64,000 nt of DNA from Omphiscola glabra (lineage: Eukaryota > Mollusca > Gastropoda > Lymnaeidae). Numbering within the stretch: position 1 is the stretch's first letter; every line of letters begins with the position of its first letter. Shown in pieces: positions 1 through 60,372 of the stretch. A program made the translations under genes and the position numbers. The notes beneath the pieces are model-generated. The model did not search any database, had not been told where the DNA came from, and worked only from the letters and a program-made list of their open reading frames with translations. The stretch spans positions 22,553,088-22,617,087 of the forward strand of contig OZ024806.1 of the NCBI GenBank assembly GCA_964017045.1. Reading direction: 5' to 3'.

Positions 1-3000
1 GGTTTATATGTCACTGTGATTAGTGGGTTGATATGTCACTGTGATTAGTGGGTTGAAATTTCACTGTGATTAGTGGGTTGAAATGTCACTGTGATTGGTG
101 GGTTGAAATGTCACTGTGATTAGTGGGTTGAAATGTCACTGTGATTAGTGGGTTGAAATGTCACTGTGATTAGTGGGTTCGTATGTAAATGTGATTAGTG
201 GGTTGATATGTCACTGTGATTAGTGGGTTGATATGTCACTGTGATTAGTGGGTTGATATGTCACTGTGATTAGTGGGTTGATATGTCAATGTGATTAGTG
301 GGTTGATATGTCACTGTGATTAGTGGGTTGATATGTCAATGTGATTAGTGGGTTGAAATGTCACTGTGATTAGTGGGTTGAAATGTCACTGTGATTAGTG
401 GGTTGATATATCACTGTGATTAGTGGGTTGATATGTCACTGTGATTAGTGGGTTGATATGTCACTGTGATTAGTGGGTTGAAATTTCACTGTGATTAGTG
501 GGTTGATATGTCACTGTGATTAGTGGGTTGAAATGTAATGTGATTAGTGGGTTGAAATGTCACTGTGATTAGTGGGTTGATAGGTCACTGTGATTAGTGG
601 GTTGATAGGTCACTGTGATTAGGGGGATGAAATGTCACTGTGATTAGTGGGTTGATAGGTCACTGTGATAAGGGGTTGAAATGACACTGTGATTAGTGGG
701 TTGAAATGTCACTGTGATTAGTGGGTTGATAGGTCACTGTGATTAGTGGGTTGAAATGTCACTGGGATTAGTGGGTTGAAATGTCACTGTGATTAGTGGG
801 TTGATAGGTCACAGAGATTAGGGGGTTGAAATGACACTGTGATTAGGGGGTTGAAATGTCACTGTGATTAGTGGGTTGATATGTCACTGTGATTAGTGGA
901 TTGAAATGTCACTGTGATTAGTGGGTTGAAATGTCACTGTGATTAGTTGGTTGATATATCACTGTGATTAGTGGGTTGATATGTCATTCCGATTAGTGGG
1001 TTTATATGTCACTGTGATTAGTGGGTTGATATGTCACTGTAATTAGTGGGTTGAAATTTCACTGTGATTAGTGGGTTGAAATGTCACTGTGATTAGTGGG
1101 TTGAAATGTCACTGTGATTAGTGGGTTGAAATGTCACTGTGATTAGTGGGTTGAAATGTCACAGTGATTAGTGGGTTGATATATCACTGTGATTAGTGGG
1201 TTGATATGTCACTCCGATTAGTGGGTTTATATGTCACTGTGATTAGTGGGTTGATATGTCACTGTGATTAGTGGGTTGAAATTTCACTGTGATTAGTGGG
1301 TTGAAATGTCACTGTGATTGGTGGGTTGAAATGTCACTGTGATTAGTGGGTTGAAATGTCACTGTGATTAGTGGGTTGAAATGTCACTGTGATTAGTGGG
1401 TTGAAATGTCACTGTGATTAGTGGGTTGATATGTCACTGTGATTAGTGGGTTGATATGTCATTCCGATTAGTGGGTTTATATGTCACTGTGATTAGTGGG
1501 TTGATATGTCACTGTAATTAGTGGGTTGAAATTTCACTGTGATTAGTGGGTTGAAATGTCACTGTGATTAGTGGGTTGAAATGTCACTGTGATTAGTGGG
1601 TTGAAATGTCACTGTGATTAGTGGGTTGAAATGTCACAGTGATTAGTGGGTTGATATATCACTGTGATTAGTGGGTTGATATGTCACTCCGATTAGTGGG
1701 TTTATATGTCACTGTGATTAGTGGGTTGATATGTCACTGTGATTAGTGGGTTGATATGTCATTCCGATTAGTGGGTTTATATGTCACTGTGATTAGTGGG
1801 TTGATATGTCACTGTAATTAGTGGGTTGAAATTTCACTGTGATTAGTGGGTTGAAATGTCACTGTGATTAGTGGGTTGAAATGTCACTGTGATTAGTGGG
1901 TTGAAATGTCACTGTGATTAGTGGGTTGAAATGTCACAGTGATTAGTGGGTTGATATATCACTGTGATTAGTGGGTTGATATGTCACTCCGATTAGTGGG
2001 TTTATATGTCACTGTGATTAGTGGGTTGATATGTCACTGTGATTAGTGGGTTGAAATTTCACTGTGATTAGTGGGTTGAAATGTCACTGTGATTGGTGGG
2101 TTGAAATGTCACTGTGATTAGTGGGTTGAAATGTCACTGTGATTAGTGGGTTGAAATGTCACTGTGATTAGTGGGTTCGTATGTAAATGTGATTAGTGGG
2201 TTGATATGTCACTGTGATTAGTGGGTTGATATGTCACTGTGATTAGTGGGTTGATATGTCACTGTGATTAGTGGGTTGATATGTCAATGTGATTAGTGGG
2301 TTGATATGTCACTGTGATTAGTGGGTTGATATGTCTATGTGATTAGTGGGTTGAAATGTCACTGTGATTAGTGGGTTGAAATGTCACTGTGATTAGTGGG
2401 TTGATATATCACTGTGATTAGTGGGTTGATATGTCACTGTGATTAGTGGGTTGATATGTCACTGTGATTAGTGGGTTGAAATTTCACTTTGATTAGTGGG
2501 TTGAAATGTCACTGTGATTAGTGGGTTGAAATGTAATGTGATTAGTGGGTTGAAATGTCACTGTGATTAGTGGGTTGATAGGTCACTGTGATTAGTGGGT
2601 TGATAGGTCACTGTGATTAGGGGGATGAAATGTCACTGTGATTAGTGGGTTGATAGGTCACTGTGATAAGGGGTTGAAATGACACTGTGATTAGTGGGTT
2701 GAAATGTCACTGTGATTAGTGGGTTGATAGGTCACTGTGATTAGTGGGTTGAAATGTCACTGGGATTAGTGGGTTGAAATGTCACTGTGATTAGTGGGTT
2801 GATAGGTCACAGAGATTAGGGGGTTGAAATGACACTGTGATTAGTGGGTTGAAATGTCACTGTGATTAGTGGGTTGATATGTCACTGTGATTAGTGGGTT
2901 GATATGTCAATGTGATTAGTGGGTTGAAATTTCACTGTGATTAGTGGGTTGAAATGTCACTGTGATTAGTGGGTTGAAATGTAATGTGATTAGTGGGTTG

Positions 3001-4199
3001 AAATGTCACTGTGATTAGTGGGTTGATAGGTCACTGTGATTAGTGGGTTGATAGGTCACTGTGATTAGGGGGATGAAATGACACTGTGATTAGTGGGTTG
3101 AAATGTCACTGTGATTAGTGGGTTGATAGGTCACTGTGATTAGGGGGTTGAAATGACACTGTGATTAGTGGGTTGAAATGACACTGTGATTAGTGGGTTG
3201 ATAGGTCACTGTGATTAGTGGGTTGAAATGTCACTGGGATTAGTGGGTTGAAATGTCACTGTGATTAGTGGGTTGATAGGTCACAGAGATTAGGGGGTTG
3301 AAATGACACTGTGATTAGTGGGTTGAAATGTCCCTGTGATTAGTGGGTTGATATGTCACTGTGATTAGTGGATTGAAATGTCACTGTGATTAGTGGGTTG
3401 AAATGTCACTGTGATTAGTGGGTTGATATATCACTGTGATTAGTGGATTGATATGTCACTCCGATTAGTGGGTTTATATGTCACTGTGATTAGTGGGTTG
3501 ATATGTCACTGTGATTAGTGGGTTGAAATTTCACTGTGATTAGTGGGTTGAAATGTCACTGTGATTAGTGGGTTGAAATGTCACTGTGATTAGTGGGTTG
3601 AAATGTCACTGTGATTAGTGGGTTGATAGGTCACTGTGATTAGGGGGTTGAAATGACACTGTCATTAGTGGGTTGAAATGTCACTGTGATTAGTGGGTTG
3701 ATAGGTCACTGTGATTAGGGGGTTGAAATGACACTGTGATTAGTGGGTTGAAATGTCACTGTGATTAGTGGGTTGATAGGTCACTGTTATTAGTTGGTTG
3801 AAATGTCATTGGGATTAGTGGGTTGAAATGTCACTGTGATTAGTGGGTTGATAGGTCACAGTGATTAGGGGGTTGAAATGACACTGTGATTAGTGGGTTG
3901 AAATGTCACTGTGATTAGTGGGTTGATAGGTCACTGTGATTAGTGGGTTGAAATGACACTGTGATTAGTGGGTTTATAGGTCACTGTGATTAGGGGGTTG
4001 ATATGTCACTGTGATTAGGGGGTTGATATGTTACTGTGATTAGTGGGTTGAAATGTTAATGTGATTAGTGGGTTGATATGTCACTGTGATTAGTGGGTTG
4101 AAATGTCACTGTGATTAGTGGGTTGGTATATCATTGTGATTAGTGGGTTGATATGTCACTGTGATTAGTGGTTTCGTATGTAAATGTGATTAGTGGGCT
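1..4199. repeat. 25-bp satellite array, about 168 copies
   Basis: Head-to-tail copies of a 25-bp unit reading about gtgggttgaaatgtcactgt followed by gatta. Common variants are aaatg/atatg/atagg in the middle and rare 22-24 bp deletion units. Rare variant monomers recur at fixed distances: the 'gttcgtatgtaaatg' variant at 177 and 2175, and the 'cattccgatt' variant near 986, 1461 and 1761. This shows higher-order repeats. The left edge is outside the window. No gene is visible. Confidence 0.97.
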
Positions 4200-4319: not shown

Positions 4320-4520
4320 CGTACGGGTGAGGTATGTAAGGAGGACCTTGGAGCCGAAAATAGGCTTGTGGTGTGGTAGGTAAGTAGGGTGGGCCTTGGA
4401 GGAGAAAAGATGCTTGTGGTGTTGTAGGTAAGTAGGGTGGGCCTTGGAGGAGAAAATATACTTGTGGTGTGGTAGGTAAGTAGGGTGGGTCATGGAGGAG
4501 AAAAGATGCTTGTGGGGAGG
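4320..4520. repeat. 48-bp minisatellite, about 4 copies
   Basis: The unit contains gtaggtaagtagggtgggcc and recurs exactly 48 bp apart (gggcc at 4391 and 4439, degenerate at 4487). Because 48 is a multiple of three it leaves minus-strand frames open, which are not credible genes. Confidence 0.85.
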
Positions 4521-4592
4521 TACATGAATTTAAGAACATATTTTTCCTTTTACATTTGAAAAATGTACGTTAATTAGATCTTTTGGGAGGCT

Positions 4593-9720: not shown

Positions 9721-12700
9721 ATGATTTTGTCAATGAGACTCCTTGCTAACACCGCCAAGTATGTTGTACCCATCTGTTTGCTGGCCTTGGCCTTCAACTA
9801 TGTGGTCTACAACCGCCTGAGCACACCCTTTGGCGTGGTCATCAAGTCAATGTCCAGTAAGTTAAATCAATTCTATGTCCAGTAAATTTGAGGATTTTGT
9901 CATTGTCCTGTAAGTTACTCTATCTGGTTTTTGTCCTGGAAGTTACCCCATCTTGTCTATGTTCTTTAAGTTACGCCAACTTTTCTATGTCCAGTAAGTT
10001 ACACCATCTAGTCTATATTCTGTAAGTTACACCATCTTGTCTATATCCTGTAAGTTACACCATCTTGTCTATGTTCAGTAAGTTACACCGTCTTGTCTAT
10101 GTTCAGTAAGTTACACCGTCTTGTCTATGTTCAGTAAGTTACACCATCTTGACTATATATCATATAAGTCACACTATCTTGTTTATATCCCATAAGCTAC
10201 ACCATCTTGTCTAAAATATATTTTTATATATTCTTTAAAAAATATCCTTAGTGCTTTCTACAACAGTTGATTCGTCCAATAACTCACACCTGGGACCAGA
10301 AGACCCAACGAAGCTTGTCGGTGACGCAGAGCAAACTGATATTTTGAAATCCATTCGAAATACTTTGTTAAACCTAACGGGAGTAGTGGAGGTGAAGCCA
10401 ATGGCGATTGAGGTGCTGAAGAAATTGGTGCCAGGCCTGCGGGACCAAGCAGATGTTGATCGTCTTGTTAGGGCCATCAACAGGATTGTCGTAAACACAG
10501 ACGAAGAAACGCTTCCGTCGACGGCCAGACCGCCTTGTCCGGTAAAGCCGGAGCATTTAAGTACGTTGATGATAGAGTTGATACGTACTAATAGGGCTCG
10601 GCTGTAAACTGGGGTTACGTGTGCGGCCCGCTATGTCTGGGGAAAATGTCACGTTACGTTCCTTGTCACGATGTACAGCTCTGCCACAGCCCTGCCGCAT
10701 CCTTGTCACGGCTCTGCCACAGCCCTGCCGCATCCTTGTCACAGCTCTGTCACAGCCCTGCCGCATCCTTGTCACAGCTCTGTCACAGCCCTGTCGCATC
10801 CTTGTCACGGCTCTGTCACAGCCCTGTCGCATCCTTGTCACGGCTCTGTCACAGCCCTGCCGCATCCTTGTCACAGCTCTGTCACAGCCCTGTCGCATCC
10901 TTGCACGGCTCTGTCACAGCCCTGTCGCATCCTTGTCACGGCTCTGTCACAGCCCTGCCGCATCCTTGTCACAGCTCTGTCACAGCCCTGTCGCATCCTT
11001 GCACGGCTCTGTCACAGCCCTGTCGCATCCTTGTCAAGGCTCTGTCACAGTCCTGTCGCATCCTTGTCACGATTGTATCACAGCCCTGCCGCATCTTTGT
11101 CACAGCTCTGCCACAGCCCTGTCGCATCCTTGTCACAGCCCTGTCACAGCCCTGTCGCATCCTTGCACGGCTCTGTCACAGCCCTGTCGCATCCTTGTCA
11201 AGGCTCTGTCACAGTCCTGTCGCATCCTTGTCACGATTGTATCACAGCCCTGCCCCATCTTTGTCACAGCTCTGCCACAGCCCTGTCGCATCCTTGTCAC
11301 AGCCCTGTCGCATCCTTGTCACGGCTCTGTCGCAGCCCTGTCGCATCCTTGTCACAGCTCTGTCACAGCCCTGCCGCATCCTTGTCACGGCTCTGTCACA
11401 GCCCTGCCACATCCTTGTCACAGCTCTGCCACAGCCCTGTCACATCCTTGTCACAGCTCTGCCACAGCCCTGTCGCATCCTCGTCACAGCACTGTCGCAT
11501 CCTTGTCACGGCTCTGTCACAGCCCTGTCGCATCCTTGTCACAGCACTGTCATAGCCCTGTCCACAAGAATGCAGATAGTTTAAAAACATTTTATAAGTG
11601 ATTTGACAAAGTAAAGATGGGCCAATTTCGTGACTTAATTTATGGATCTCCCCCCCGCCCCCCCCAACCCTGCGTTTTTATCACGATTTAATTTTGTTCA
11701 ATGTTCTGTTTACGGCATGTATCAATGTGTTTTGTTTTATGTCTGAATGAGCCAGAAATCAGGCCGCCATATTGTACATCCACACATGTCCCTCTTTACT
11801 GGTATTTAAACAACCTCTTTGAACAAAGTTTTTTTTGTATACATCTTTTATATGAATTATTTTTTTATTATTTCATTTTATATTAATATTCTAAATCCCC
11901 ATTTGCTTTTAAACCGCAGATTAATTTCATCAGCTTTTTCAGAGTATACAAAGGAAAATGTTACGCGCCAAACGCACTTGCGATATTATTTTTTTAAAGG
12001 ATATCATAGAGCCGTTATAGGGAGTCAGTGGAATCGTATTTATTTCCTCTTCCCATTGAAAAGCAGAAAAAAACCTGATTTATTTTGGATTGGGAGCTGA
12101 ATATTTGATAGAATGTGTTGTCATCGGCAAAGAGCCTATGTGCCAAATTTTAGTTCAGTGAAGTGGGTCAATTAGCCGTCAGAAGATTTTGCTGCCAAGC
12201 CAGAAAGATTAAAAAAAAACACAACTTAGTACAAGCTATAATTCTTTCAAGAAGCACGTCTATCTTGATCCCTAATTTCACTTCCTTGACATTCAAGCAG
12301 CTGCCCCGAATCCCAGTTTTAGCAATGTACGTTTTGCTTCAAAATGAAGACTGTAATACATTTTATTGATAAAGAGTTCTTTCGGGAACGTAAATTAATT
12401 TCAACAATCCCTGTTGAGGGTATTTGATTATTCTATCCAGTTGGCGCACTTGCAGCTAACCAGACCAAAATGACGCCAGGGACATTGGAGAAACTGTTTC
12501 CCGACCTTGAACCCGGAGGTCATCACGAGCCCGGCGAGTGTCGACCCTCAGAGAAACTGGCCATCGTCATCCCGTATAGGAACAGGTTCGACCACCTGCA
12601 CGTTCTGCTGCACAACTTGATACCTGTCCTTATAAGGCAACAGCTGGACTTTACGATTTTTGTTATAGAACAGGTGAAGGGAATGTGAGTTGAAAATTTT

Positions 12701-15700
12701 ATAACGTGGTTAAGAAAACAGTCCTGTTCCTGTAAATTGCTAGCGCCTGTACCGAAGCATTTAACATTTCGTATAATAAGAAATAGTAGCATTGAACGTT
12801 AACCCTCTGACCTCATTCAAAACTTCATTCACCATTAACCCATTATGGAAGGGAAGACTTTAATTGAGGTACTTCTTTGTTTTCACGAAGTATTTTTAGA
12901 GTAGACGAAACGATTTTATTTGAGAAATGTCGCTTTAGTTTGTTTCACATAATAGATATTAAAAAGGAGACTATGTTAAGAATTTGTTGATATAAAAGGT
13001 TAACTTTTTTAAAGATTTTTTTTTAATACTGAAGGAACTAGCGCATAGACGAGTATAAGAAGCTCTAAAATATAAACTCGTCTTAAATTACGTCTCAAAA
13101 TGATCTAGAGACCGTTATAAGATAGGGATGTGAAAGTTGTTTGCTTATATATCATAAAAAACCTATAGATACATGTATGACAGTAGCCGTAGCACACGCT
13201 CACGCAGATACGATCATAAACACAGTTAAGATCATAAACACAGTTACGATCATAAACACAGTTATGATCATAACCACAGATACGATCACAAACACATTTT
13301 GATCCAAAACACAGATACGATCACAAACACATATATAAACACAAACACAGACACGATCACAAACACGGACACGATCACAAACACAGATACGATCACAAAC
13401 ACGATACGATCACAAACACAGTTACGATCATAAACACTTATATGATCACAAACGCATAAAAGATCACAACCACAGATACGATAAAAACATATGATCACAA
13501 AAGCATTTACGATCACAAACACACATATAGGATCACAAACACTATCGACAAGCTCAGAACCTAGATCAGAATTTGGATACCGGTTGCCTCGGACACAAAT
13601 GTGATAATGACGGTAACAAAAACGACTGTGCTGGAAAAGACCTCCTCCACTTCCATACATTTTTTTGTGTACAGTACCACTACAAGTCCTATGTTTGTGT
13701 ACAGTGAAACTACAAGTCCTATGTTTGTGTACAGTGCAACTACAAGTCCTATGTTTGTGTACAGTGCAACTACACGTCCTTTGTGTACAGTGCAACTACA
13801 AGTCTTATGTTTGTTTACAGTGCAACTACAAGGCCTATGTTTGTGTACAGTGCAACTTCACGCCCCATGGTTGTGTAGAGTGCAAATACAAGTCATAGGT
13901 TACAAGTTTAAACTGCTCTCTCCTCTCGTCCAGGACCTGTCCACCACATTCATTTAAACTGCTCTCTCCTCTCGTCCAGGAACTGCCCACCACATTCATT
14001 TAAACTGCTCTCTCCTCTCGCCCAGGACCTGCCCACCACATTTATTTAAACTGCTCTCTCCTCTCGCCCAGGACCTGCCCACCACATTCATTTAAAATGC
14101 TCTCTCCTCTCGTCCAGGACCCGCCCACCACATTCAACAGGGGAATTTTATTCAACGTTGGATTTCTTGAGGCTCTCAAGTCAGCTAACTTTGACTGCTT
14201 CGTATTTCATGACGTGGACATGATTCCCCTCAACGACCATTGTTTGTACAGATGTGCTGGCCACCCACGTCACCTGACGGTGGGGGTCAGCAAATGGAAG
14301 TATGGGTGAGTGTTTCATGCTGTCAAATCAGCAGTTCTATAGAATTTATGGAGACACCGAGATAGGAACGTTTTTGTCTTTACAGTATATGCATTATTTT
14401 TCTGTGATAAAAATTTGAATTTTAATATATGGTAAGTCGGCATGATGCGCGATAAAGATTTTAAGTAGAATAATTAGAGACAAAAGAGTTTTTGTAAATA
14501 AATATCTCTATATGTATATTATTATGTTAAGCTTTAATTATTATTAGAAAAAATACAAATTTAAATATTTCGGGAAATGCCGTGAGTAGAATAAGAAACA
14601 TTAATATAACTAGGAATTAAATTTACATAATATATGTGTACACTACCCAAACTTAAAATTAAAGGAAGGAAAAGAATAAGAATGGGCACAAAGTCTTAAA
14701 GAAAAACGAGATCAGAAGAATATGATACGCCAATGTGTACTTTATATATATTATGTGAGTGAGAGCGAGAGAGAGAGAGAGAGAGAGATTAACAGAGAAT
14801 ACCAAAAAGCATGTGCATGCAAAGATGTATTAGCTATACACATGGTTGCGCTAGTGTGATTACTGTGACATTTGTAACGGTAAGATCAATTCTTCGTTCA
14901 CCAGCCGAAAAAAAAAAATGTCGTTGGCCGGATTCGGCCCGTGGGCCATTGTTTTGTTGACCCCGACCTTACTAGACTATGACACCAAAAACGGTCTTCA
15001 TCAATCGATCTCGATTGTCACTCATCTCAACACCGAATAAGCACGTAATTAGGACAATGTTTGAAGAGCTGTTCATCCTCCACCGCGAGGATCAACGAAA
15101 ATACATTCTCGTGACCGTCTTTGTCTGTTTCATCCTGTGCGCATCTTAATACCAGCTGACCTATAAACAAGGATGTATTATTTATTGTATAGCTGTTCAT
15201 TTGTTGACCATGCGTGATGATTCCCCGATGGTACAGTACAAGATACCCCATCCTTTTTTTTTTGTGTTATGAAACATTGGAAAACTGGCTGGTTTTTAAA
15301 TAATTAAAAAAAAAAAATTAAATACTTCATTTTCTTGAACGTATATATTTAGTGAAGAATTACTGTATAAAAATTGTTATCAACTTCCAAATTTAAGCTC
15401 ATAGCAGAAAAAATACAGCCCTATTGGGAAACTAATATAACGCTTTATTAGCTAATATGAGACTAATATAAACCGGTCGATAACTAATATGATACTTATA
15501 TAAACGATTGAATGGCTAACATCAGACAGCTCTATTAAGTCTAATATAAACAATCCGTTCGCAAACATCGGACAGCTCCATTGAGACTATATAAACAATC
15601 CGTTCGAAAACATCGGACAGCTCTATTGAGACCATATAAACAATCCGTTAGCTAACATCAGACAGCTCTATTGAGACTAATATAAACAATCCGTTCGCAA

Positions 15701-17953
15701 ACATCATACATCTCTAATTACCGCTGCATTTTGTTGCAGACTGCCCTACTCTGATTACTTTGGAGGTGTCGTGGCATTTACTAGGCATCAGTTTGAAGCC
15801 ATCAATGGAGACTCCACTGTTTACTTTGGTTGGGGCGGAGAAGACGATGACTTGCAGAGAAGGTACACATAATAGAATTCATAACAGACTCCATAACAGA
15901 CTTCATAACAGACTTCATAACAGACTTCATTAACGGACTTCATAACAGACTCCATAACAGACTCGATAACAGACTCGATAACAGACTTCATAACAGGCTT
16001 CACAACAGACTTCATACCAGACTTCATAACAGACTTCATAACAGACTTCATAACAGACTTCATAACAGACTCCATAAAGACTTCATAACAGACTTCATAA
16101 TGGGAGGATGACTTCTAGGGCTTGTCCTTAACGTGGTTTGTGTTATTTAAGGTGTTGTTGACAGGTCAAACTTTATGATACATAGAGAAATGACGTTGAG
16201 CAGTGACATGGGGCAGCGACGTGCAGCTGAGACACAGAGCAGTGACATGGAGCAGCGACGTGCAGCTGAGACATGGAACTTAAACATAGAGCTTAGACAT
16301 GGAACTTAGACATGGAGCTTAGAGATGGAGCTGAGACATGGAGATGAGACATTTCGCAGTGACCTTTAGCTGAGACATGGGGCTGAGACATGGAACCTAG
16401 ACATGGGGCTTAGAAATGGAGCTTAGACATGGAGATGAGACATTTCGCAGTGACCTTGAGCTGAGACATGGAGCTGAGACACGGAGCAGAGACTTTGGAA
16501 AGACACAGACATATAACAGATACAGACATGGAACAGAGACATGGAGCAGACAATATTTTGGACAATTTTCAAACCGAAGAAATATTTTAAAGATTTATTT
16601 CTCTTATTTTGGCTTTATATACCTAGCGTATCAGCGTATAATAGATGCACACACTTTACATGTGTACAATAGACATATATTATTTACATGTGTATAGTAG
16701 ACATATATTATTTACATGTGTATAGTAGACATATATTATTTACATGTGTATAGTAGACATAGATTATTTACATGTGTATAATAGACATACATTATTTTAA
16801 TTTGTATAGTAGGCATAGATTATTTACATGTGTATAGTAGACATAAATTATTTTAATTTGTATAGTAGACATACATTTTTAACAATTATTTTGGACATAC
16901 ATTTATTGACAGTTTCTGTATTTATCAACATATGGGTTATGGTCAAGTTGTCTTAAAGTCGCGCATTTCATTAACATCCTGTAATTTTCAAATTTAAATA
17001 GTCTACCCTTATATATGCTAAGAATATTATCATCATTTTGTTGAACTGTTTATGAACATAGCGTAATCACTACTTTGTGGTGCTAGGCAATATGGATTGG
17101 GATTTTAAAAACTAAAATCTTATGTGTTCTCAGGGTTGCCGCTCACGGCTTTAAGACACTTCGATTCCCAGCTGAGATTTGTCGCTATGAGATGATCAAA
17201 CACGGGTCGGATGTGGGCAACACTCCTAATCCTAAGAGGTACCGGTCAGTTGAAATCATAAGCTCTAGAGATGGGGGAAATATGGATTCCCATAAATATT
17301 ATTTCAATTACAACATAATCATGGCAATATACACCGCTTAAAAAAAACATTTTTTACGTATCTCAAGTGGCAATGTTCAAGGAAGGACTTGCGTTATACA
17401 TTTCATAATTGTAAACTGCAATACAGGGATTCTAAAACAAAGGCGCCAGCATCTCCCATGAGTGCCAGCATCCCCAAGGGTTGCCAGCATCCCCCAGAGG
17501 TGCAAGCATACCTCGGGGGTGACAGACTCCATAAGGTGTGTCAGAATCCATCAGGTATTCCAGCATTCATCAGGGCGGCTGGTGGCCGTGTGGCGGATCG
17601 TAAGAAAACCCAGAAAATTAGCTTTCTTTCTATAACAAACAAACACACACACACTTAGTATCATTGACGATTCGGGAAATATGTTTTTACACTGAGATGG
17701 GGTTGGGTGTGGGATGCACCGTGAAACAGTCAAGATCCCCTACTGTAAAAAAAAATTTGTGTGACCAAGTTTTACCTCTACTCTTCCTACCTGCAGGTTG
17801 AAACTGGTCAGCTCGTCCATAGGGAGAATGTTGAAGGACGGTCTCAATACAACAACCTACGAAGTGACGAAGTACGACAAGAAACACCTGTATACCTGGA
17901 TCAACGTCTTTATAAATAGAACAGAAGTTCTGCAAGGTCATGGCCTGGTGTGA
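9721..17953 (+). CDS. Beta-1,4-galactosyltransferase-like enzyme, 7 exons, 418 aa
   Basis: Exons: 9721-9856, 10252-10560, 12441-12673, 14118-14305, 15740-15862, 17134-17244, 17797-17953. All junctions are GT-AG and the phases join without a break. It is a type II Golgi protein: a short cytoplasmic tail, a membrane anchor at about residues 13-33, then a stem with N-glycosylation sequons. The catalytic domain follows the B4GALT family (CAZy GT7): IPYRNR (192-197), FNR (232-234), DVD (258-260) and WGGEDDD (320-326). Asp260, Met350 and His353 fall on the metal ligands, and the 90-residue Asp-to-Met spacing equals that of the bovine enzyme (D254, M344, H347). Tyr295 in YFGG matches bovine Tyr289, which favours UDP-Gal over UDP-GalNAc; a snail family member is reported to use UDP-GlcNAc, so donor choice is inference. 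Length is close to vertebrate B4GALT1 (about 400 aa). The start is the only ATG in frame with the anchor; an upstream ATG is followed at once by a stop. Fold assignment is near certain; substrate is not. Confidence 0.95.
9852..10213 (+). repeat. 28-bp intron-1 array built on the exon-1 splice donor
   Basis: The true donor (exon ends 9856, gtaagt follows) lies inside the first unit, gtccagtaagtta. About 12 further units of 28 bp follow, each restating the donor context, and about seven keep an intact gtaagtt hexamer. Reading through exon 1 meets an in-frame TAA in the second unit, so use of a downstream donor would truncate the protein. Confidence 0.93.
10670..11560 (+). repeat. 33-bp minisatellite in intron 2, about 27 copies
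   Basis: The unit is around tgtcgcatccttgtcacggc plus tctgtcacagccc, with a few shortened copies and a duplicated block of about 190 bp (near 11000-11110 and 11185-11290). The 33-bp period and absence of plus-strand stops open all three plus frames for about 300 codons. It starts about 110 bp after the exon-2 donor. Confidence 0.95.
11640..12200 (+). repeat. Dispersed repeat family R1, copy 1 (intron 2)
   Basis: It begins at a poly-C tract (11649-11667) and contains acgcgccaaacgcacttgcg and gcctatgtgccaaattttag. The same order of motifs recurs at 24550-24930 in the same orientation with moderate divergence, so this is an interspersed repeat. No coding capacity or terminal repeat was recognised, so the class is unknown. 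Confidence 0.7.
13195..13545. repeat. 18-bp-type minisatellite in intron 3
   Basis: Repeated acgatcacaaacacagat-like units with variable length. It produces a spurious minus-strand frame of 169 codons (13286-13795). Confidence 0.85.
13660..13890. repeat. 30-bp minisatellite in intron 3, about 8 copies
   Basis: The unit is tgtgtacagtgcaactacaa plus gtcctatgtt. It directly precedes the 46-bp splice-acceptor array. Confidence 0.88.
13907..14136 (+). repeat. 46-bp array duplicating the exon-4 splice acceptor, 5 copies
   Basis: Each unit has a pyrimidine tract ending cgtccag or cgcccag, followed by the start of exon 4 (gacctgcccaccacattca). Acceptor positions, the first base after cag, are 13934, 13980, 14026, 14072 and the true one at 14118, exactly 46 bp apart. 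In the exon-3 reading frame each of the four upstream copies runs into a TAA within eight codons, so only the last acceptor gives a full-length enzyme. Confidence 0.95.
14763..14789. repeat. (GA)n microsatellite
   Basis: Short gagagaga run in intron 4. Confidence 0.85.
14923..14965 (+). mobile_element. hAT-like end fragment
   Basis: The segment ggccggattcggcccgtggg and the following bases up to gacccc resemble the right end of the element at 20435-21375. Only one end is visible, so this is a solo fragment in intron 4. Confidence 0.5.
15430..15715. repeat. Approx. 45-bp minisatellite in intron 4, about 6 copies
   Basis: Units carry cagctctattgagactaata and ataaacaatccgttcgc. The array ends about 25 bp before the exon-5 acceptor but does not contain it. 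Confidence 0.85.
15875..16110. repeat. 12-bp minisatellite in intron 5, about 19 copies
   Basis: The unit is agacttcataac with agactccataac and agactcgataac variants. It starts about 15 bp after the exon-5 donor. Confidence 0.93.
16180..16545. repeat. Purine-rich 12-13 bp minisatellite in intron 5
   Basis: Degenerate gagacatggagct units, with a longer duplicated block (gatgagacatttcgcagtga) at 16343 and 16433. Confidence 0.85.
16655..16880. repeat. 27-bp minisatellite in intron 5, about 8 copies
   Basis: The unit is tagacatatattatttacat plus gtgtata. Confidence 0.9.
17445..17580. repeat. Degenerate approx. 20-bp repeat in intron 6
   Basis: Diverged units of the form gccagcatcccccagaggt. 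Period and copy number are approximate. Confidence 0.55.
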
Positions 17954-41500: not shown

Positions 41501-44500
41501 TGATTTATAGAGTTTTCAAACGATTGAAATAGTACTCAGATGTTCTAAATAATCCTCAAATGATTGAAAGAGTTCCCAAATGATTAAATTGTTAATATTA
41601 ACTAAACGTTTTTTAATAGTTTTTTTTAAATTTAATGTCCAAGTAATTCGTTGAAATCATTCTTTTCCGTCCAATGATTTATTTACTGGTAATTTGATCG
41701 AGCGATTATTGCAAAGTATATATTTTTATGATGCAAACATAAATTAGTATTTAAATTATGACTATTTTATTTTTACTAGGATTTCATTGGACGTCATATT
41801 GTAAGCTTGTGTATGTGATTTGAACATTTGTGTCCAGGTTTACTACGAGGGAGAATCCGTGCCTTCAGGGGACTGCAACAATTGTACATGTAGGAAAGGC
41901 AATGTGGAGTGCACCAAAAAACATTGTCCTTCCATCTGCACGTTCAATGGAGTTGTGAGTTTGTAATATCTACGTCAGAAGTTGTCAACAAAAACAAAAC
42001 TGGTTCTAGGGATTTTTTTTTTTATACGGAGGTTGATGAAAAGGGGGGGGGGGTGTTAAATAATCGTGCATAATTCTATTTCTTTTAAGTATACACTTTG
42101 GGATCTCTACATCTTTGAGTTTAATAAAAGATATATCATAATGTAAACTATAGTTTAAAATACTCGAAATACAACTGAGTAGTTTAGAGAAAGTATAGTT
42201 CTACAATGTATTCTATTCAAATTTCTGTTTGTCTATAATTTTTTTTATATTTCTTGATAGAGAATTATGAATATTTGTGGTGCAAGTTGAAAAATTGATG
42301 GCTTAAATCAAATGGTGGAGTTTGACGATAAGCATTTGTGTCCAGGTTTACTACGAGGGAGAATCCGTGCCTTCAGGGGACTGCAACAATTGTACATGTA
42401 GGAATGGCAATGTGGAGTGCACCAAAATATATTGTCCTACCACATGTACATTCAATGGAGTGGTGAGTTTGATTTTTTAAATTTCCTTTGCCAGAAAAAC
42501 CAATTAAAATATTCAATTATTATTATTTATGTATTTGGAGAAAATGCATGTTTCTGAAAGCCTTTCTTTCTACTCGAAAACTTGTAGCAAATCATTTCTT
42601 TGGCACACGAGACCCTGTCACTCAGTTCTTCGTCTGACTTGTTCGTTGAACGGCGAGACAAGTTGGACGGGGGAGCTCAAATGAAAAATGCAGAATTTTG
42701 TTCAGTGAACGGCGAGACAAGTTGGACGGGGGAGCTCAAATGAAAGATGCAGAATTTTGTTCAGTGAACTGTGAGACAAGTTGGACGAGGAAGCTCAAAT
42801 GAGAGATGCAGAATTTTGTTCAGTGAACGGCGGGAAAAGTTGGACGTGGGAGATCAAATGAGAGATGAAGAATTTTGTTCAGTGAAGTCGAAACAAGTTG
42901 GATAGGGGAGCTCAAATGAAAGATGCAGAATTTTGGGGAAGGTTGTTCGAAATGGTTTAAGGGCAGGACATACGGCAATTTATACTCGGAGCAACCAACG
43001 GCAGGCTATCATATTTATTAAACGCTGCAGCTGTAAAAATATTTGTCTTTATTATATGCATAAGTAAGACTAAAGTTACTTAATCCAGGATATTGTAGGC
43101 ATCGGTGTTTAAAAAAGTAAATATTTATAAATTTTTATATAATTAAAAGATTGAAATTTTCAAACTGAAAAGTGAAACATAAAAATATTCCCTTTTCTAT
43201 TAAAGGCGAGTTTAAAATTCCTGCCAATTTTAAAATAGTTCAATTTTTATAAAATGCATTACGCAGAGTAGGTCTGTGCGGACAATATTAGACCTAATGT
43301 ATCAAAAAAAAAATCTATATTGCCTCTACATTTAATCCGAAGCCTTTGATTCATCCAGTGCTAATCTAAACCTCCACACAGTCTTTCTTTCTGTAATTGT
43401 TTCAGTTCGTTTGGAAAAAAGTAAAATTGTAAACTAAGTAATATGTTGGTTAAAAAAGGACCACATGTGTTTTAATCGAAATCCAATTCTTGTTTTTATT
43501 ATAACAAACACAGAACTAATCAATAAAATTATATAAACATTTATATTTCTGTCCACTAACTTGTTTCATTCACGTAATGTGTACCTTTGGGAGATTTTTA
43601 CTTTTTACTCCAGTTGTATAATGAGGGTGACCAAGTCCCCGTGCATCGCTGTAAAAGATGCATCTGTAAGGGTGGACGGATTAGCTGTATCAAGATACCG
43701 TGTCCACCATACTCATGCTCTCAGGACGGTGTGGTATGTACAGGGGTTTTCAGATTTACTAATAAGTTATTTTTTTAGTTTAAAGTTTTGGTCTAACATT
43801 TTTCTTAAAAATCGGCAGAAGAGCATTTCGACAAGGAAACTAATGGAAATTGAAATAGGCAATATAGTATACTTTATAAAGAACAAATGAAGAATATTTA
43901 TCTCTCTTTGTTATTTTTATAATTTTTTAATGTAATAAAATTGGACATTTTTAACGGATCTTGGGAGTGTCTGTCTAATTTAAACATAGTAAAAGGTGTT
44001 TCAGCCTAAGCTCAGTGTCTCTATAACGTAGGAAATTTGGTTCACGGCTGACATATATTTTCATGCCAATGAGTTGTGCTGATCGCACAATTGTTTCAGT
44101 TTGATATTAAAATATAAACAAGTTCGTCTTTTTACTTCAGTACAGTTTTGTGTATTAAATCGTGTTTTTTGTGTGCAAAGCAGTAGATAAATAATTATTT
44201 TTAAACTTAAATTTTATTCACCAGGTGTACAATGATGGCGATTCGGTGCCATCTGGAGACTGTAACACATGTACTTGTAATAATGGAAGCATTGATTGTA
44301 CCAAAAACGTATGTCCAGTAACATGCACAGTCAAAGGAATTGTAAGTTGTATTTAACTTTTGCAAATCGCACAACTTTCGGTTATGTTTTTTATATAAAA
44401 ATTATGTCTTTTTACTTTAGTACAATGGTTTGTTTTAAATTAGTGTGTCTTAAATAGTGTGTATTAAATTGTGATTTTTTATTGAATGTCAATGGGTACC

Positions 44501-47500
44501 TAACAAATTTTTGTAAACGTTAATTTTGTTCATCAGGTGTTGTTGTAATTGTTCGTCCATCAACATCGACTAGGATCATCTAGCCATCCGATTTGGGGGG
44601 GGGGGGGGGCAAACGTTACGGTGAATTTGTAGGTGGCTTGCTAGTTCGATTGAAATTACGACATTAACAACAATAAACAATTGTTACTCTTATTTACTCG
44701 CTCCTTATTTGTATTAGAACTGGATTTTGAATTTAGCGAATAAGTGAGCTTCAAACAAATAAAAATAGTTATCAAATGATTTAAAGAGTTTTCAAACGAT
44801 TGAAATAGTACTCAGATGTTTTAAATAATCCTCAAATGATTGAAAGTATCCTCAAATAATTAAAAGAATCCTCAAATGATTAAAAGAATCCTCAAATGAT
44901 TAAAAGTATCTTCAAATGAATGAAAGAATCCTCAAATGATTGAGATAGTTCTCAAATGATTGAATTCTTAATATTTAAAACTTTACTGTAGAATGTTTAA
45001 AAATCTATGAAACTATCTGAACAACATTTTTGGAGCTTAAATTCGATATCATCAAAACTTTTTAAAATTGTTTTTTAAATGTCCAAGTAATTCGTTGAAA
45101 TCATTCTTTTCCGTTCAATGATTTATTTATTGGTAATTTGATTGAGCGATAATTGCAAAGTATATATATTAATGATGCAAACATGAATTAGTACTTAAGT
45201 TATGATTATATTTTATTTTCATTGGGATTTCACTGGACGTCATATTGTAAGCTTGTATATGTGATTTGAACATTTGTTACCAGGTTTACTACGAGGGAGA
45301 ATCCGTGCCTTCAGAGGACTGTAACAATTGTACATGTAGGAATGGCAATGTGGAGTGCACCAAAATATATTGTCCTACCACATGTACATTTAATGGAGTG
45401 GTGAGTTTGAATTTTAAAATTTTCTTTGCCAGAAAACCAATTGAAATATTCAATTATTCTTATTTATTTATTTGAAAAAAAATCATGTTCTTAAAGCCTT
45501 TCTTTCTACTCGAAAACTAGTAGCAAAACATTTCTTTGGCACAAGTGACCCTCTCACTCAATTCATCGTCTGACTTGTTCAATGAACAGCGAGACAAGTT
45601 GGACTGGGGAGCTCAAATGAGAGAAGCAGAATTTTGGGGAGGGTTGTTCGAAAGGGTTTAAGGGCAGGACATACGGCAATTATATTCGGAACAACCAACG
45701 GCAGGCTATCATATTTATTAAAAGCTGCAGCCTAAAAATATTGTTTTATTATATGCATATGTAAGACTAAAGTTACTTAATCCAGGATTTTGTAGGCATC
45801 GGGAGTTTAAAAAGTAAATATTTATACATTTTTATATAATTTAAAGATTACAATTTTCATACTAAAAGTAAAACGTAAAAATAGTCCCTTTTCTGTTAAA
45901 GGCGAGTTTAAAAGTCACGCCAATTTTAAAATAGTTCAATTTTTTTTAAATGCATTACGCAGAGTAGGTCTGTGCGGAAAATATTAGACGAAATGTATCA
46001 AAACAAAAAAATATCTACATTGCCTCTACATTTAATCCGAAGCCTTTGGATTCATCCAGTGCTAATCTAAACCTCCACACAGTCTTTCTTTCTGTATTTG
46101 TTTTAGTTTGTTTGGGATAAAGTAAAATTGTAAACTAAGTGATATGTTGGTTAAAAAAGGACCACATGTGTTTTAATCGAAATACAATGCTTTTTTGTTG
46201 TCTTATAACGCAACAAACACAGAACTAATCAATCAAATTATATACACATTTATATTTCTGTCCACTAACTTGTGTCATTCACGTAATGTGTACCTTTGGG
46301 AGATTTTTACTTTTTACTCCAGGTGTATAATGAGGGTGACCAAGTCCCCGTGCATCGCTGTAAAAGATGCATCTGTAAGGGTGGACGGATTAGCTGTATC
46401 AAGATACCGTGTCCACCATACTCATGCTCTCAGGACGGTGTGGTATGTACAGGGGTTTTCAGATTTACTAATAAGTTATTTTTTTAGTTTAAAGTTTTGG
46501 TCTAACATTTTTCTTAAAAATCGGCAGAAGAGCATTTCGACAAAGAAACTAATGGAAATTGAAATAGGCAATATAGTATACTTTATAAAGAACAAATGAA
46601 GAATATTTATCTCTCTTTGTTATTTTTATAATTTTTTAATGTAATAAAATTGGACATTTTTAACGGATCTTGGGAGTGTCTGTCTAATTTAAACATAGTA
46701 AAAGGTGTTTCAGCCTAAGCTCCGTGTCTCTATAACGTACGAAATTTGGTTCACGGCTGACATATATTTTCATGCCAATGAGTTGTGCTGATCGCACAAT
46801 TGTTTCAGTTTGATATTAATATATTAACAAGTTCGTCTTTTTACTTCAGTACAGTTTTGTGTATTAAATCGTGTTTTTTGTGTGCAAAGCAGTAGATAAA
46901 TAATTATTTTTAAACTTGAATTTTATTCACCAGGTGTACAATGATGGCGATTCGGTGCCATCTGGAGACTGTAACACATGTACTTGTAATAATGGAAGCA
47001 TTGATTGTACCAAAAACGTATGTCCAGTAACATGTACAGTCAAAGGAATTGTAAGTTGTATTTAACTTTTGCAAATCGCACAACTTTCGGTTATGTTTTT
47101 TATATAAAAATTATGTCTTTTTACTTTAGTACAATGGTTTGTTTTAAATTAATGTGTCTTAAATAGTGTGTATTAAATGGTGATTTTTTATTGAATGTCA
47201 ATAGGTACCTAACAAAATTTGTAAACGTTAATTTTGTTCATCAGGTGTTGTTGTAATTGTTCGTCCATCAACATCGACTAGGATCATCTAGCCATCCGAT
47301 TTGGGGGGGGGGGGGCAAACGTTACGGTGAATTTGTAGGTGGCTTGCTAGTTCGATTGAAATTACGACATTAACAACAATAAACAATTGTTACTCTTATT
47401 TACTCGCTCCTTATTTGTATTAGAACTGGATTTTGAATTTAGCGAATAAGTGAGCTTCAAACAAATAAAAATAGTTATCAAATGATTTAAAGAGTTTTCA

Positions 47501-50500
47501 AACGATTGAAATAGTACTCAGATGTTTTAAGTAATCCTCAAATGATTGAAAGAATCCTCAAATAATTAAAAGAATCCTCAAATGATTAAAAGAATCCTCA
47601 AATGATTAAAAGTATCTTCAAATGAATGAAAGAATCCTCAAATGATTGAAATAGTTCTCAAATGATTGAATTCTTAAAATTTAAAACTTTACTGTAGAAT
47701 TTTTAAAAATCTATGAAACTATCTGAACAACATTTTTGGAGCTTAAATTCGATATCATCAAAACTTTTTAAAATTGTTTTTTAAATGTCCAAGTAATTCG
47801 TTGAAATCATTCTTTTCCGTTCAATGATTTATTTATTGGTAATTTGATTGAGCGATAATTGCAAAGTATATATATTTATGATGCAAACATGAATTAGTAT
47901 TTAAGTTATGATTATATTTTATTTTCATTGGGATTTCACTGGACGTCATATTGTAAGCTTGTATATGTGATTTGAACATTTGTTACCAGGTTTACTACGA
48001 GGGAGAATCCGTGCCTTCAGAGGACTGTAACAATTGTACATGTAGGAATGGCAATGTGGAGTGCACCAAAATATATTGTCCTACCACATGTACATTTAAT
48101 GGAGTGGTGAGTTTGAATTTTAAAATTTTCTTTGCCAGAAAACCAATTGAAATATTCAATTATTCTTATTTATTTATTTGAAAAAAATTCATGTTCTTAA
48201 AGCCTTTCTTTTTACTCGAAAACTAGTAGCAAAACATTTCTTTGGCACAAGTGACCCTCTCACTCAATTCATCGTCTGACTTGTTCAGTGAACAGCGAGA
48301 CAAGTTGGACTGGGGAGCTCAAATGAGAGAAGCAGAATTTTGGGGAGGGTTGTTCGAAAGGGTTTAAGGGCAGGACATACGGCAATTATATTCGGAACAA
48401 CCAACGGCAGGCTATCATATTTATTAAAAGCTGCAGCCTAAAAATATTGTTTTATTATATGCATATGTAAGACTAAAGTTACTTAATCCAGGATTTTGTA
48501 GGCATCGGGAGTTTAAAAAAGTAAATATTTATACATTTTTATATAATTTAAAGATTACAATTTTCATACTAAAAGTAAAACGTAAAAATAGTCCCTTTTC
48601 CATTAAAGGCGAGTTTAAAAGTCATGCCAATTTTAAAATAGTTCAATTTTTTTAAAATGCATTACGCAGAGTAGGTCTGTGCGGAAAATATTAGACGAAA
48701 TGTATCAAAACAAAAAAATATCTACATTGCCTCTACATTTAATCCGAAGCCTTTGGATTCATCCAGTGCTAATCTAAACCTCCACACAGTCTTTCTTTCT
48801 GTATTTGTTTTAGTTTGTTTGGAAAAAAGTAAAATTGTAAACTAAGTGATATGTTGGTTAAAAAAGGACCACATGTGTTTTAATCGAAATACAATGCTTT
48901 TTTGTTGTCTTATAACGCAACAAACACAGAACTAATCAATCAAATTATATACACATTTATATTTCTGTCCACTAACTTGTGCCATTCACGTAATGTGTAC
49001 CTTTGGGAGATTTTTACTTTTTACTCCAGGTGTATAATGAGGGTGACCAAGTCCCCGTGCATCGCTGTAAAAGATGCATCTGTAAGGGTGGACGGATTAG
49101 CTGTATCAAGATACCGTGTCCACCATACTCATGCTCTCAGGACGGTGTGGTATGTACAGGGGTTTTCAGATTTACTAATAAGTTATTTTTTTAGTTTAAA
49201 GTTTTGGTCTAACATTTTTCTTAAAAATCGGCAGAAGAGCATTTCGACAAGGAAACTAATGGAAATTGAAATAGGCAATATAGTATACTTTATAAAGAAC
49301 AAATGAAGAATATTTATCTCTCTTTGTTATTTTTATAATTTTTTAATGTAATAAAATTGGACATTTTTAACGGATCTTGGGAGTGTCTGTCTAATTTAAA
49401 CATAGTAAAAGGTGTTTCAGCCTAAGCTCCGTGTCTCTATAACGTAGGAAATTTGGTTCACGGCTGACATATATTTTCATGCCAATGAGTTGTGCTGATC
49501 GCACAATTGTTTCAGTTTGATATTAATATATTAACAAGTTCGTCTTTTTACTTCAGTACAGTTTTGTGTATTAAATCGTGTTTTTTGTGTGCAAAGCAGT
49601 AGATAAATAATTATTTTTAAACTTAAATTTTATTCACCAGGTGTACAATGATGGCGATTCGGTGCCATCTGGAGACTGTAACACATGTACTTGTAATAAT
49701 GGAAGCATTGATTGTACCAAAAACGTATGTCCAGTAACATGTACAGTCAAAGGAATTGTAAGTTGTATTTAACTTTTGCAAATCGCACAACTTTCGGTTA
49801 TGTTTTTTATATAAAAATTATGTCTTTTTACTTTAGTACAATGGTTTGTTTTAAATTAATGTGTCTTAAATAGTGTGTATTAAATGGTGATTTTTTATTG
49901 AATGTCAATAGGTACCTAACAAAATTTGTAAACGTTAATTTTGTTCATCAGGTGTTGTTGTAATTGTTCGTCCATCAACATCGACTAGGATCATCTAGCC
50001 ATCCGATTTGGGGGGGGGGGGGGCAAACGTTACGGTGAATTTGTAGGTGGCTTGCTAGTTCGATTGAAATTACGACATTAACAACAATAAACAATTGTTA
50101 CTCTTATTTACTCGCTCCTTATTTGTATTAGAACTGGATTTTGAATTTAGCGAATAAGTGAGCTTCAAACAAATAAAAATAGTTATCAAATGATTTAAAG
50201 AGTTTTCAAACGATTGAAATAGTACTCAGATGTTTTAAGTAATCCTCAAATGATTGAAAGAATCCTCAAATAATTAAAAGAATCCTCAAATGATTAAAAG
50301 AATCCTCAAATGATTAAAAGTATCTTCAAATGAATGAAAGAATCCTCAAATGATTGAAATAGTTCTCAAATGATTGAATTCTTAAAATTTAAAACTTTAC
50401 TGTAGAATTTTTAAAAATCTATGAAACTATCTGAACAACATTTTTGGAGCTTAAATTCGATATCATCAAAACTTTTTAAAATTGTTTTTTAAATGTCCAA

Positions 50501-53500
50501 GTAATTCGTTGAAATCATTCTTTTCCGTTCAATGATTTATTTATTGGTAATTTGATTGAGCGATAATTGCAAAGTATATATATTTATGATGCAAACATGA
50601 ATTAGTATTTAAGTTATGATTATATTTTATTTTCATTGGGATTTCACTGGACGTCATATTGTAAGCTTGTATATGTGATTTGAACATTTGTTACCAGGTT
50701 TACTACGAGGGAGAATCCGTGCCTTCAGAGGACTGTAACAATTGTACATGTAGGAATGGCAATGTGGAGTGCACCAAAATATATTGTCCTACCACATGTA
50801 CATTTAATGGAGTGGTGAGTTTGAATTTTAAAATTTTCTTTGCCAGAAAACCAATTGAAATATTCAATTATTCTTATTTATTTATTTGAAAAAAATTCAT
50901 GTTCTTAAAGCCTTTCTTTTTACTCGAAAACTAGTAGCAAAACATTTCTTTGGCACAAGTGACCCTCTCACTCAATTCATCGTCTGACTTGTTCAGTGAA
51001 CAGCGAGACAAGTTGGACTGGGGAGCTCAAATGAGAGAAGCAGAATTTTGGGGAGGGTTGTTCGAAAGGGTTTAAGGGCAGGACATACGGCAATTATATT
51101 CGGAACAACCAACGGCAGGCTATCATATTTATTAAAAGCTGCAGCCTAAAAATATTGTTTTATTATATGCATATGTAAGACTAAAGTTACTTAATCCAGG
51201 ATTTTGTAGGCATCGGGAGTTTAAAAAAGTAAATATTTATACATTTTTATATAATTTAAAGATTACAATTTTCATACTAAAAGTAAAACGTAAAAATAGT
51301 CCCTTTTCTGTTAAAGGCGAGTTTAAAAGTCATGCCAATTTTAAAATAGTTCAATTTTTTTAAAATGCATTACGCAGAGTAGGTCTGTGCGGAAAATATT
51401 AGACGAAATGTATCAAAACAAAAAAATATCTACATTGCCTCTACATTTAATCCGAAGCCTTTGGATTCATCCAGTGCTAATCTAAACCTCCACACAGTCT
51501 TTCTTTCTGTATTTGTTTTAGTTTGTTTGGAAAAAAGTAAAATTGTAAACTAAGTGATATGTTGGTTAAAAAAGGACCACATGTGTTTTAATCGAAATAC
51601 AATGCTTTTTTGTTGTCTTATAACGCAACAAACACAGAACTAATCAATCAAATTATATACACATTTATATTTCTGTCCACTAACTTGTGCCATTCACGTA
51701 ATGTGTACCTTTGGGAGATTTTTACTTTTTACTCCAGGTGTATAATGAGGGTGACCAAGTCCCCGTGCATCGCTGTAAAAGATGCATCTGTAAGGGTGGA
51801 CGGATTAGCTGTATCAAGATACCGTGTCCACCATACTCATGCTCTCAGGACGGTGTGGTATGTACAGGGGTTTTCAGATTTACTAATAAGTTATTTTTTT
51901 AGTTTAAAGTTTTGGTCTAACATTTTTCTTAAAAATCGGCAGAAGAGCATTTCGACAAGGAAACTAATGGAAATTGAAATAGGCAATATAGTATACTTTA
52001 TAAAGAACAAATGAAGAATATTTATCTCTCTTTGTTATTTTTATAATTTTTTAATGTAATAAAATTGGACATTTTTAACGGATCTTGGGAGTGTCTGTCT
52101 AATTTAAACATAGTAAAAGGTGTTTCAGCCTAAGCTCCGTGTCTCTATAACGTAGGAAATTTGGTTCACGGCTGACATATATTTTCATGCCAATGAGTTG
52201 TGCTGATCGCACAATTGTTTCAGTTTGATATTAATATATTAACAAGTTCGTCTTTTTACTTCAGTACAGTTTTGTGTATTAAATCGTGTTTTTTGTGTGC
52301 AAAGCAGTAGATAAATAATTATTTTTAAACTTAAATTTTATTCACCAGGTGTACAATGATGGCGATTCGGTGCCATCTGGAGACTGTAACACATGTACTT
52401 GTAATAATGGAAGCATTGATTGTACCAAAAACGTATGTCCAGTAACATGTACAGTCAAAGGAATTGTAAGTTGTATTTAACTTTTGCAAATCGCACAACT
52501 TTCGGTTATGTTTTTTATATAAAAATTATGTCTTTTTACTTTAGTACAATGGTTTGTTTTAAATTAATGTGTCTTAAATAGTGTGTATTAAATGGTGATT
52601 TTTTATTGAATGTCAATAGGTACCTAACAAAATTTGTAAACGTTAATTTTGTTCATCAGGTGTTGTTGTAATTGTTCGTCCATCAACATCGACTAGGATC
52701 ATCTAGCCATCCGATTTGGGGGGGGGGGGGGGGGGCAAACGTTACGGTGAATTTGTAGGTGGCTTGCTAGTTCGATTGAAATTACGACATTAACAACAAT
52801 AAACAATTGTTACTCTTATTTACTCGCTCCTTATTTGTATTAGAACTGGATTTTGAATTTAGCGAATAAGTGAGCTTCAAACAAATAAAAATAGTTATCA
52901 AATGATTTAAAGAGTTTTCAAACGATTGAAATAGTACTCAGATGTTTTAAGTAATCCTCAAATGATTGAAAGAATCCTCAAATAATTAAAAGAATCCTTA
53001 AATGATTAAAAGAATCCTCAAATGATTAAAAGTATCTTCAAATGAATGAAAGAATCCTCAAATGATTGAAATAGTTCTCAAATGATTGAATTCTTAAAAT
53101 TTAAAACTTTACTGTAGAATTTTTAAAAATCTATGAAACTATCTGAACAACATTTTTGGAGCTTAAATTCGATATCATCAAAACTTTTTAAAATTGTTTT
53201 TTAAATGTCCAAGTAATTCGTTGAAATCATTCTTTTCCGTTCAATGATTTATTTATTGGTAATTTGATTGAGCGATAATTGCAAAGTATATATATTTATG
53301 ATGCAAACATGAATTAGTATTTAAGTTATGATTATATTTTATTTTCATTGGGATTTCACTGGACGTCATATTGTAAGCTTGTATATGTGATTTGAACATT
53401 TGTTACCAGGTTTACTACGAGGGAGAATCCGTGCCTTCAGAGGACTGTAACAATTGTACATGTAGGAATGGCAATGTGGAGTGCACCAAAATATATTGTC

Positions 53501-60003: not shown

Positions 60004-60372
60004 GTATGTAGAGAGGTTTTCAAATTTAATAATAAGTTATTCTTTAGTTCCAGTTTTTGGTCTAACATTTTTGTTAAATATCGATGCAAGGGCATTTCGA
60101 CCAGGAAACTAATGGAAATTTAAATAGGCAATATAGTATACTTTATAAAGAACAAAGGAAGAATGTTTATCTCTCTTTGTTATTTTGATAGTATTTTAAT
60201 GTAATAAAATTGGACATTTTAACAGATCGTTGGAGTGTCTGTCCATTTAGACATAGTAAACTGTGTTTCATCCTAAACTCTTCTCTCCACGTCGTAAGAA
60301 ATTTGGTTCACGGCTGATATATATTTTCATGCCAATGAGTTGTGCTGATCGCACGATTATTTCAGTTTGACA
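58836..60372 (+). repeat. Module 7, diverged and interrupted
   Basis: The A exon has Glu to Asp (VYYDGES) and the B exon His to Tyr before the first Cys. Introns are clearly more diverged than between modules 2-6. The module breaks in the B-C intron, 369 bp after exon B, where LINE sequence begins. Confidence 0.9.

Follow-up and report, generated by a model that had tools for sequence, protein, structure and literature searches.

The 64,000-nucleotide stretch of the Omphiscola glabra genome analyzed here (contig OZ024806.1, positions 22,553,088 to 22,617,087; hereafter the window) contains, on its plus strand, a gene that, to judge from its predicted protein, is a paralogue of beta-1,4-galactosyltransferase (B4GALT); the acceptor splice site of its exon 4 lies within a tandem array of five 46-bp units. 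The predicted protein scores well above the cut-offs of the Pfam profiles Glyco_transf_7N (PF13733; 153.9 bits against 27) and 7C (PF02709; 88.9 against 23), and matches B4GALT1 in PDB (E 3e-62). Its top named matches are proteins of the gastropods Elysia, Aplysia and Candidula (56-71% identity in the first seven), and none of the best 120 of 167 matches is more than 71% identical; the named matches point to a heterobranch gastropod as the probable host. Exon 3 (12470-12673) was taken from an in-frame ATG, its 5' end not being fixed, and ends in phase 0 at GAACAG/GTGAAG; exon 4 (14118-14305, 188 nt) is B4GALT-like, starts with DPPTTFNRGILFNVGF and is followed by GTGAGT; exons 5 and 6 are found at 15740-15862 and 17134-17238, and the last coding exon of the gene likely lies near 17.8 kb.

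The original prediction, made from the sequence without database searches, had proposed five exact copies of the exon-4 acceptor in this gene. A repeat search of the window recovers five head-to-tail 46-bp units at precisely the predicted position, 13907-14136; the copies are, however, not exact, pairwise identity being 42-45 of 46 positions (91-98%). Each unit comprises 24 bp of intron end, the CAG and 19 bp of exon 4 (about 20 bp had been estimated), with a pyrimidine tract in every copy, and each acceptor position that had been named turns out to be where the exon part of that copy begins. Copy 1 (13907-13952) has its AG at 13932-13933 and a decoy exon start at 13934, and is preceded by non-repeat sequence; copy 2 (13953-13998, decoy exon start 13980) and copy 3 (13999-14044, decoy exon start 14026) carry the pentamer TTCAT at position -28, and copy 4 (14045-14090, decoy exon start 14072) carries TTTAT there; copy 5 (14091-14136) holds the authentic acceptor, with exon 4 running from 14118, and its candidate branch-point A at 14090 is the final base of copy 4. 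Two private bases mark copy 5, and one each marks copies 1, 2 and 3; copies 3 and 4 are alike at 45 of 46 positions, five copies being too few to judge homogenization of the inner ones. Ahead of exon 4, the only AGs in the array are those of the units, five in all. With no more than 3 mismatches allowed, the acceptor core is present at five places in the window and is absent from all 100 dinucleotide shuffles.

When the 745-Mb genome (37 contigs) was searched at the DNA level, with common words skipped, the whole array was listed at this locus only; in addition, a 21-bp array on C3 gave weak matches (68-73%) to the pyrimidine part. That array (L005, 4624-5518) consists of approximately 42 copies of a pyrimidine-rich 21-bp unit that resembles the intronic half of the 46-bp repeat and ends in TCTTCTCCAG. 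The corresponding 10-kb stretch of C3 yielded no convincing B4GALT exon (best tblastn E 0.59), and the match is most likely a chance similarity of low-complexity sequence; a dispersed element carrying the acceptor was rejected, the C3 match being to the 21-bp pyrimidine array.

With copy 5 as the acceptor, the exon 3-exon 4 junction reads VIEQ/DPPTTFNRG and aligns without gaps to B4GALT1 in PDB and to six mollusc proteins. The reading frame is open across exons 3 to 6 with copy 5 alone; copies 1 to 4 each yield seven codons and then TAA, so that the prediction that only the last copy runs on into exon 4, the others meeting TAA within eight codons, holds with the stop as codon 8. The codon position of the boundary between intron 3 and exon 4 is identical in 27 of the 27 exon-4 acceptors called in the family (26 paralogues and the locus described here, hereafter the index locus; the acceptor of L013 was left uncalled), and since all called paralogues share this one position, the intron is old.

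The decoys match the true acceptor in strength. On a weight matrix built from 43 other acceptors of the B4GALT family, the four decoys reach 10.76, 9.30, 10.92 and 10.92 bits, compared with 10.76 bits for the true site; the five acceptors of the array outscore 35-41 of the 43 other family acceptors, and among 77 AGs scored in the intron none outside the array exceeds 7.54. In copies 2 to 5, the A of the branch-point-like motif TTYAT stands at -28 relative to the exon start, with no AG between the motif and the acceptor AG; no yTnAy motif occurs within 46 nt upstream of copy 1. TTYAT arises where exon-derived ATTCA or ATTTA abuts intronic TTTAAA; as a motif formed at the junction of two units, it was created by the duplication and is hence missing before copy 1. 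As branch points these motifs are candidates, proposed on sequence grounds. Because no AG intervenes, scanning from the nearest motif would find the right AG in copies 2 to 5, and since each of these copies thus resembles a complete acceptor, the choice would lie between modules and not along one scan. The expectation that scanning would meet four decoys first is therefore correct only for a branch point upstream of the array, and the view of the array as a special scanning puzzle is only partly supported.

Similar arrays occur at other genes, and a unique gene-specific device was rejected on that account. A genome search with exons 4 and 5 gave 57 matches that resolved into 30 loci, of which 28 were counted, including the index locus (L007); L010, a duplicate of the window, and the intronless L006 were set aside. 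The family is strongly expanded, with several loci in local clusters on C14, C16 and C17 (L006-L035). In L006 (G000:C10:29465833-29466138) exons 3 to 5 are fused in one open frame of 467 amino acids, resembling an intronless retrocopy. Boundary counts were reduced from 113 to 108 by removal of four apparent boundaries of L006 and of the L033 'exon 6' acceptor; exon ends without a splice site (L006 exon 5, L013 exon 4, L033 exon 5) were also dropped. With an exon boundary counted as straddled if a tandem array extends 4 bp or more into both the intron and the exon, arrays straddle 10 of the 108 boundaries at B4GALT loci: besides the index acceptor, these are the exon-4 acceptor of L033 (a 35-bp unit in three copies, unrelated to the index repeat), the exon-5 acceptor of L029 (a 43-bp unit in seven copies), and seven donors, at L012, L015, L016, L018, L019, L021 and L027. 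Two of the seven donor arrays reach approximately 24-25 units of 26 bp, and a 26-bp exon-3-donor array is common to the C16 loci L016, L019 and L027. Among the exon-4 acceptors of the other intron-containing loci, only that of L033 (1 of 26) is straddled by an array; exon 4 of L015 and of L029 has a diverged second copy of the boundary in a 30-mer test. L015 has three duplicated boundaries, a 31-bp exon-3 donor array of six copies and diverged second copies of its exon-4 and exon-5 acceptors.

In two further gene families, straddling was observed at 3 of 47 placeable myosin boundaries (30 loci) and at 2 of 56 kinesin boundaries (39 loci), one of the two kinesin cases resting on a weak donor; pooled over the three families, the count is 15 of 211. 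In the myosins and kinesins, a weight matrix served to choose a splice site close to where the domain match ended, so that some positions are approximate. For the myosins, 13 of 60 match ends were dropped for want of a plausible splice site, and some of the 47 boundaries belong to near-identical locus pairs (L039/L040, L048/L049, L055/L056); for the kinesins, 22 of 78 match ends were left out, as was L081, whose region was cut. The donor score at L103 is low, the array at L098 is only 69% matched, and the AG picked at L051 probably lies 16 nt upstream of the true one, which belongs to the same array. The 30-mer test, which is independent of the repeat finder, sought each boundary 30-mer, with 21 or more of 30 positions matching, in the adjoining 400 bp of intron. 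At B4GALT and myosin loci, 15 of 149 boundaries were positive, compared to 0 of 149 exon-interior 30-mers and 1 of 149 shuffles (6 of 155 boundaries had flanks too short to be included); three of the 15 positives (exons 4 and 5 of L015, exon 4 of L029) have no straddling array according to the repeat finder. For the kinesins, with a flank of about 300 bp, the result was 1 of 56 boundaries against 0 of 56. The original prediction had called acceptor choice at the index locus a real question; the choice there would lie between five near-identical modules, and the question is not peculiar to this gene. As a side observation on the myosins, G000:C2:7913775-7917853 contains five successive myosin-head matches to nearly the same profile positions (approximately 117-160); three of them have an open frame of 2024 amino acids, and they may be mutually exclusive exons lying among tandem repeats free of stops.

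The array is most likely a minisatellite of the type called 'mirage', a neutral tandem duplication across an exon boundary in which the acceptor adjacent to the exon is the one in use. A 46-bp segment that by chance lay across the boundary of intron 3 and exon 4 would have been tandemly duplicated, and slippage or unequal exchange would then have raised the number of units to five. The duplication was presumably tolerated because the exon-side copy still couples an intact acceptor to the whole exon, a coding consequence that follows directly from the translation. The five acceptors would act as parallel 3' splice sites rather than as five AGs behind one branch point, and the exon-adjacent copy would be mainly used, probably, to go by what is generally known of splicing, through exon definition over the 188-nt exon and closeness to exonic enhancers. 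Transcripts spliced to any of copies 1 to 4 would terminate at codon 8 of exon 4 and would be expected to undergo nonsense-mediated decay; a premature stop ahead of further exon junctions is by the usual rule a decay target, and as at least two further exon junctions follow the exon with this stop, these products would qualify. The array would need no function, and would be one instance of a process that recurs in the genome.

Several points weigh against this account. That copy 5 is used, where the branch point lies and that the other products decay are all deduced from the sequence. Human boundary repeats are reported to change splicing, according to the available parts of the source (PMC2812944). 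Neutral tolerance is also in question where decoys have lost their dinucleotide, which could mean selection in those loci: over 13 arrays, with the decoys per array set by hand, AG or GT is lost in 9 of 95 aligned decoys (GT in 3 of 4 at L061, 2 of 3 at L021 and 2 of 24 at L016; AG in 2 of 8 at L051, where an AG stands one base upstream of the tested position), and the second copy at exon 4 of L029 has lost its AG as well. Finally, chance placement of the founding segment may be an incomplete explanation. In a random-seed model, in which every observed array had its founding unit assigned a random position (2000 trials, exons left in the target), 2.70 straddles are expected in the B4GALT loci against 10 observed, and 0.73 in the myosin loci against 3; jointly, 13 were observed against 3.43 expected, and 13 or more occurred in 0 of 2000 trials.

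This excess is the ground for an alternative that is tentatively possible, namely that splice sites are hot spots where minisatellites arise or persist above the chance rate, for which the proposed causes are structures formed cotranscriptionally, pyrimidine tracts, or an anchoring effect of the exon-side copy under selection. Counting the shared C16 donor array once leaves the excess in place (at least 11 straddles in 0.05% of the 2000 trials), and the duplication of boundary but not of exon-interior 30-mers points the same way, with the qualification that purifying selection also acts on the exon-interior sequences used as the control. Based on the array-edge density just outside the B4GALT boundaries, the B4GALT excess drops to about 2-3 fold (hand arithmetic); paralogues are non-independent, and a selected exon-side copy keeps an array recognizable for longer. 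The kinesins, with 2 of 56 boundaries straddled and 29 array rows in 30 kb, are near chance by rough arithmetic, without a simulation, and their 30-mer result (1 of 56) likewise speaks against hot spots. Random seeding as a full explanation was thus rejected as too low for the B4GALT loci, and is near enough for the kinesins; in the B4GALT and myosin loci, straddling exceeds it approximately 2-4 fold, which is suggestive. A joint reading, in which splice sites of the gastropod lineage are preferred sites of minisatellite birth or survival and an exon-proximal rule founded on exon definition selects the copy used, is rather doubtful. If it were true, roughly one in ten to one in thirty exon edges, depending on the family, would carry two to approximately 25 strong duplicate sites, of which the other copies would feed nonsense-mediated decay and now and then shift exon ends in evolution.

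It is unlikely that the array is kept for regulated unproductive splicing, tuning the enzyme level through degraded transcripts of the upstream acceptors. The four decoys are strong and intact and share the same early stop with at least two exon junctions downstream, as such regulation would have it. Over the 13 arrays, AG or GT is intact in 86 of 95 aligned decoys (4 of 4 in the index array), and decoy dinucleotides have changed less than the remaining positions of the unit (10 changes against 17.4 expected); purging of decoys is therefore not borne out, although within-array homogenization weakens the test, and equally explains the intact decoys. Most paralogues lack an array at the same acceptor, apart from the single straddled site and the two diverged second copies mentioned above; array sequences differ between genes, and donors as well as acceptors are hit.

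An assembly artefact with inflated or collapsed copy number is very improbable: tandem arrays are often misassembled, yet 230 bp is far below long-read length, copies 1, 2, 3 and 5 have private differences, and like arrays occur at other loci. The birth of a new intron or exon by tandem duplication of a splice site, a proposed starting point of such models in the available parts of a study of amphioxus globins (PMC3087553), is scarcely credible for an intron whose codon position recurs in 26 other paralogue acceptors, in an array that shows no donor-like GT by eye (CTC/GTCCAG three times, CCT/GTCCAC once) and whose decoy exon parts are closed by TAA.

Elsewhere in the window, a donor-like array of four 48-bp copies on the plus strand (4330-4522) contains three TAG/GTAAGT sites. 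The original prediction had regarded the acceptor array as the second splice-site array of this gene, at the opposite type of site; the donor-like sites are indeed present, but no exon ending at them could be demonstrated, with a stop in each of the three frames in the roughly 60 bp that precede them. A role of this array as exon 1 of the B4GALT-like gene could likewise not be shown in the face of these stops; it may belong to a non-coding first exon. The window further contains about 168 copies of a 25-bp unit (1-4197) and a 2.7-kb tandem unit in about six copies (44400-60100), of which five share an open frame of 140 amino acids and the sixth has diverged. Two open frames on the minus strand (61102-61476 and 62676-63086) are, to judge from their motifs, presumably pieces of a non-LTR (long terminal repeat) retroelement (reverse transcriptase, endonuclease).

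Splice sites that compete as identical copies are usually hand-built in minigenes. The gastropod arrays offer a natural series of acceptors and donors, from 2 to approximately 25 copies, with the same intron available in paralogues with and without arrays, and hence a natural test of how cells choose among near-identical splice sites. The AGs of NAGNAG acceptors and AG exclusion zones follow one branch point; copies 2 to 5 of the index array differ in that each has its own branch-point-like motif. Competition between AGs is common to both, as far as the available parts of the literature on NAGNAG acceptors and exclusion zones go (PMC3250501, PMC1431707). In human segmental duplications, internal tandem repeats located at an exon-intron boundary sometimes alter splicing and may form novel introns, again according to the accessible portion of the source (PMC2812944); the B4GALT intron, in contrast, is old, and the repeat lies on its acceptor. 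No mollusc or gastropod mirage was found among the papers listed in the literature searches, which is weak evidence, as most subscription papers were out of reach; as far as these searches reach, the mollusc host and the estimate of abundance appear to be new. The mirage phenomenon, found described under that name for amphioxus only, would thereby extend to a mollusc, with a first abundance figure. A minisatellite giving multiple splice donor sites in the human gene 6-16 (IFI6) was reportedly described by Turri, Cuin and Porter in 1995; to go by the title, this minisatellite repeats a splice site as well, but a donor and not an acceptor. The original mirage paper is said to be that of Canestro et al. 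in 2002. The amphioxus mirages comprise Adh3, the globins BflGb6 and BflGb9 and troponin C, with PGBD5 likened to them, and are reported to leave normal splicing undisturbed, in those parts of the two sources that were available (PMC3087553, PMC3902484). Like them, the gastropod unit spans the exon boundary, keeps its AG in the copies and leaves the authentic copy beside an intact exon; as far as the same excerpts indicate, BflGb6 is an acceptor array, as in the gastropod B4GALT-like gene. The gastropod array differs in its host and gene, and in its 46-bp unit, compared to the 150-160 bp given for the globins and the 10-72 bp given for Adh3 in these partial texts; it is known from the DNA of one haplotype, whereas for amphioxus the same texts include reverse transcription PCR and haplotype variation.
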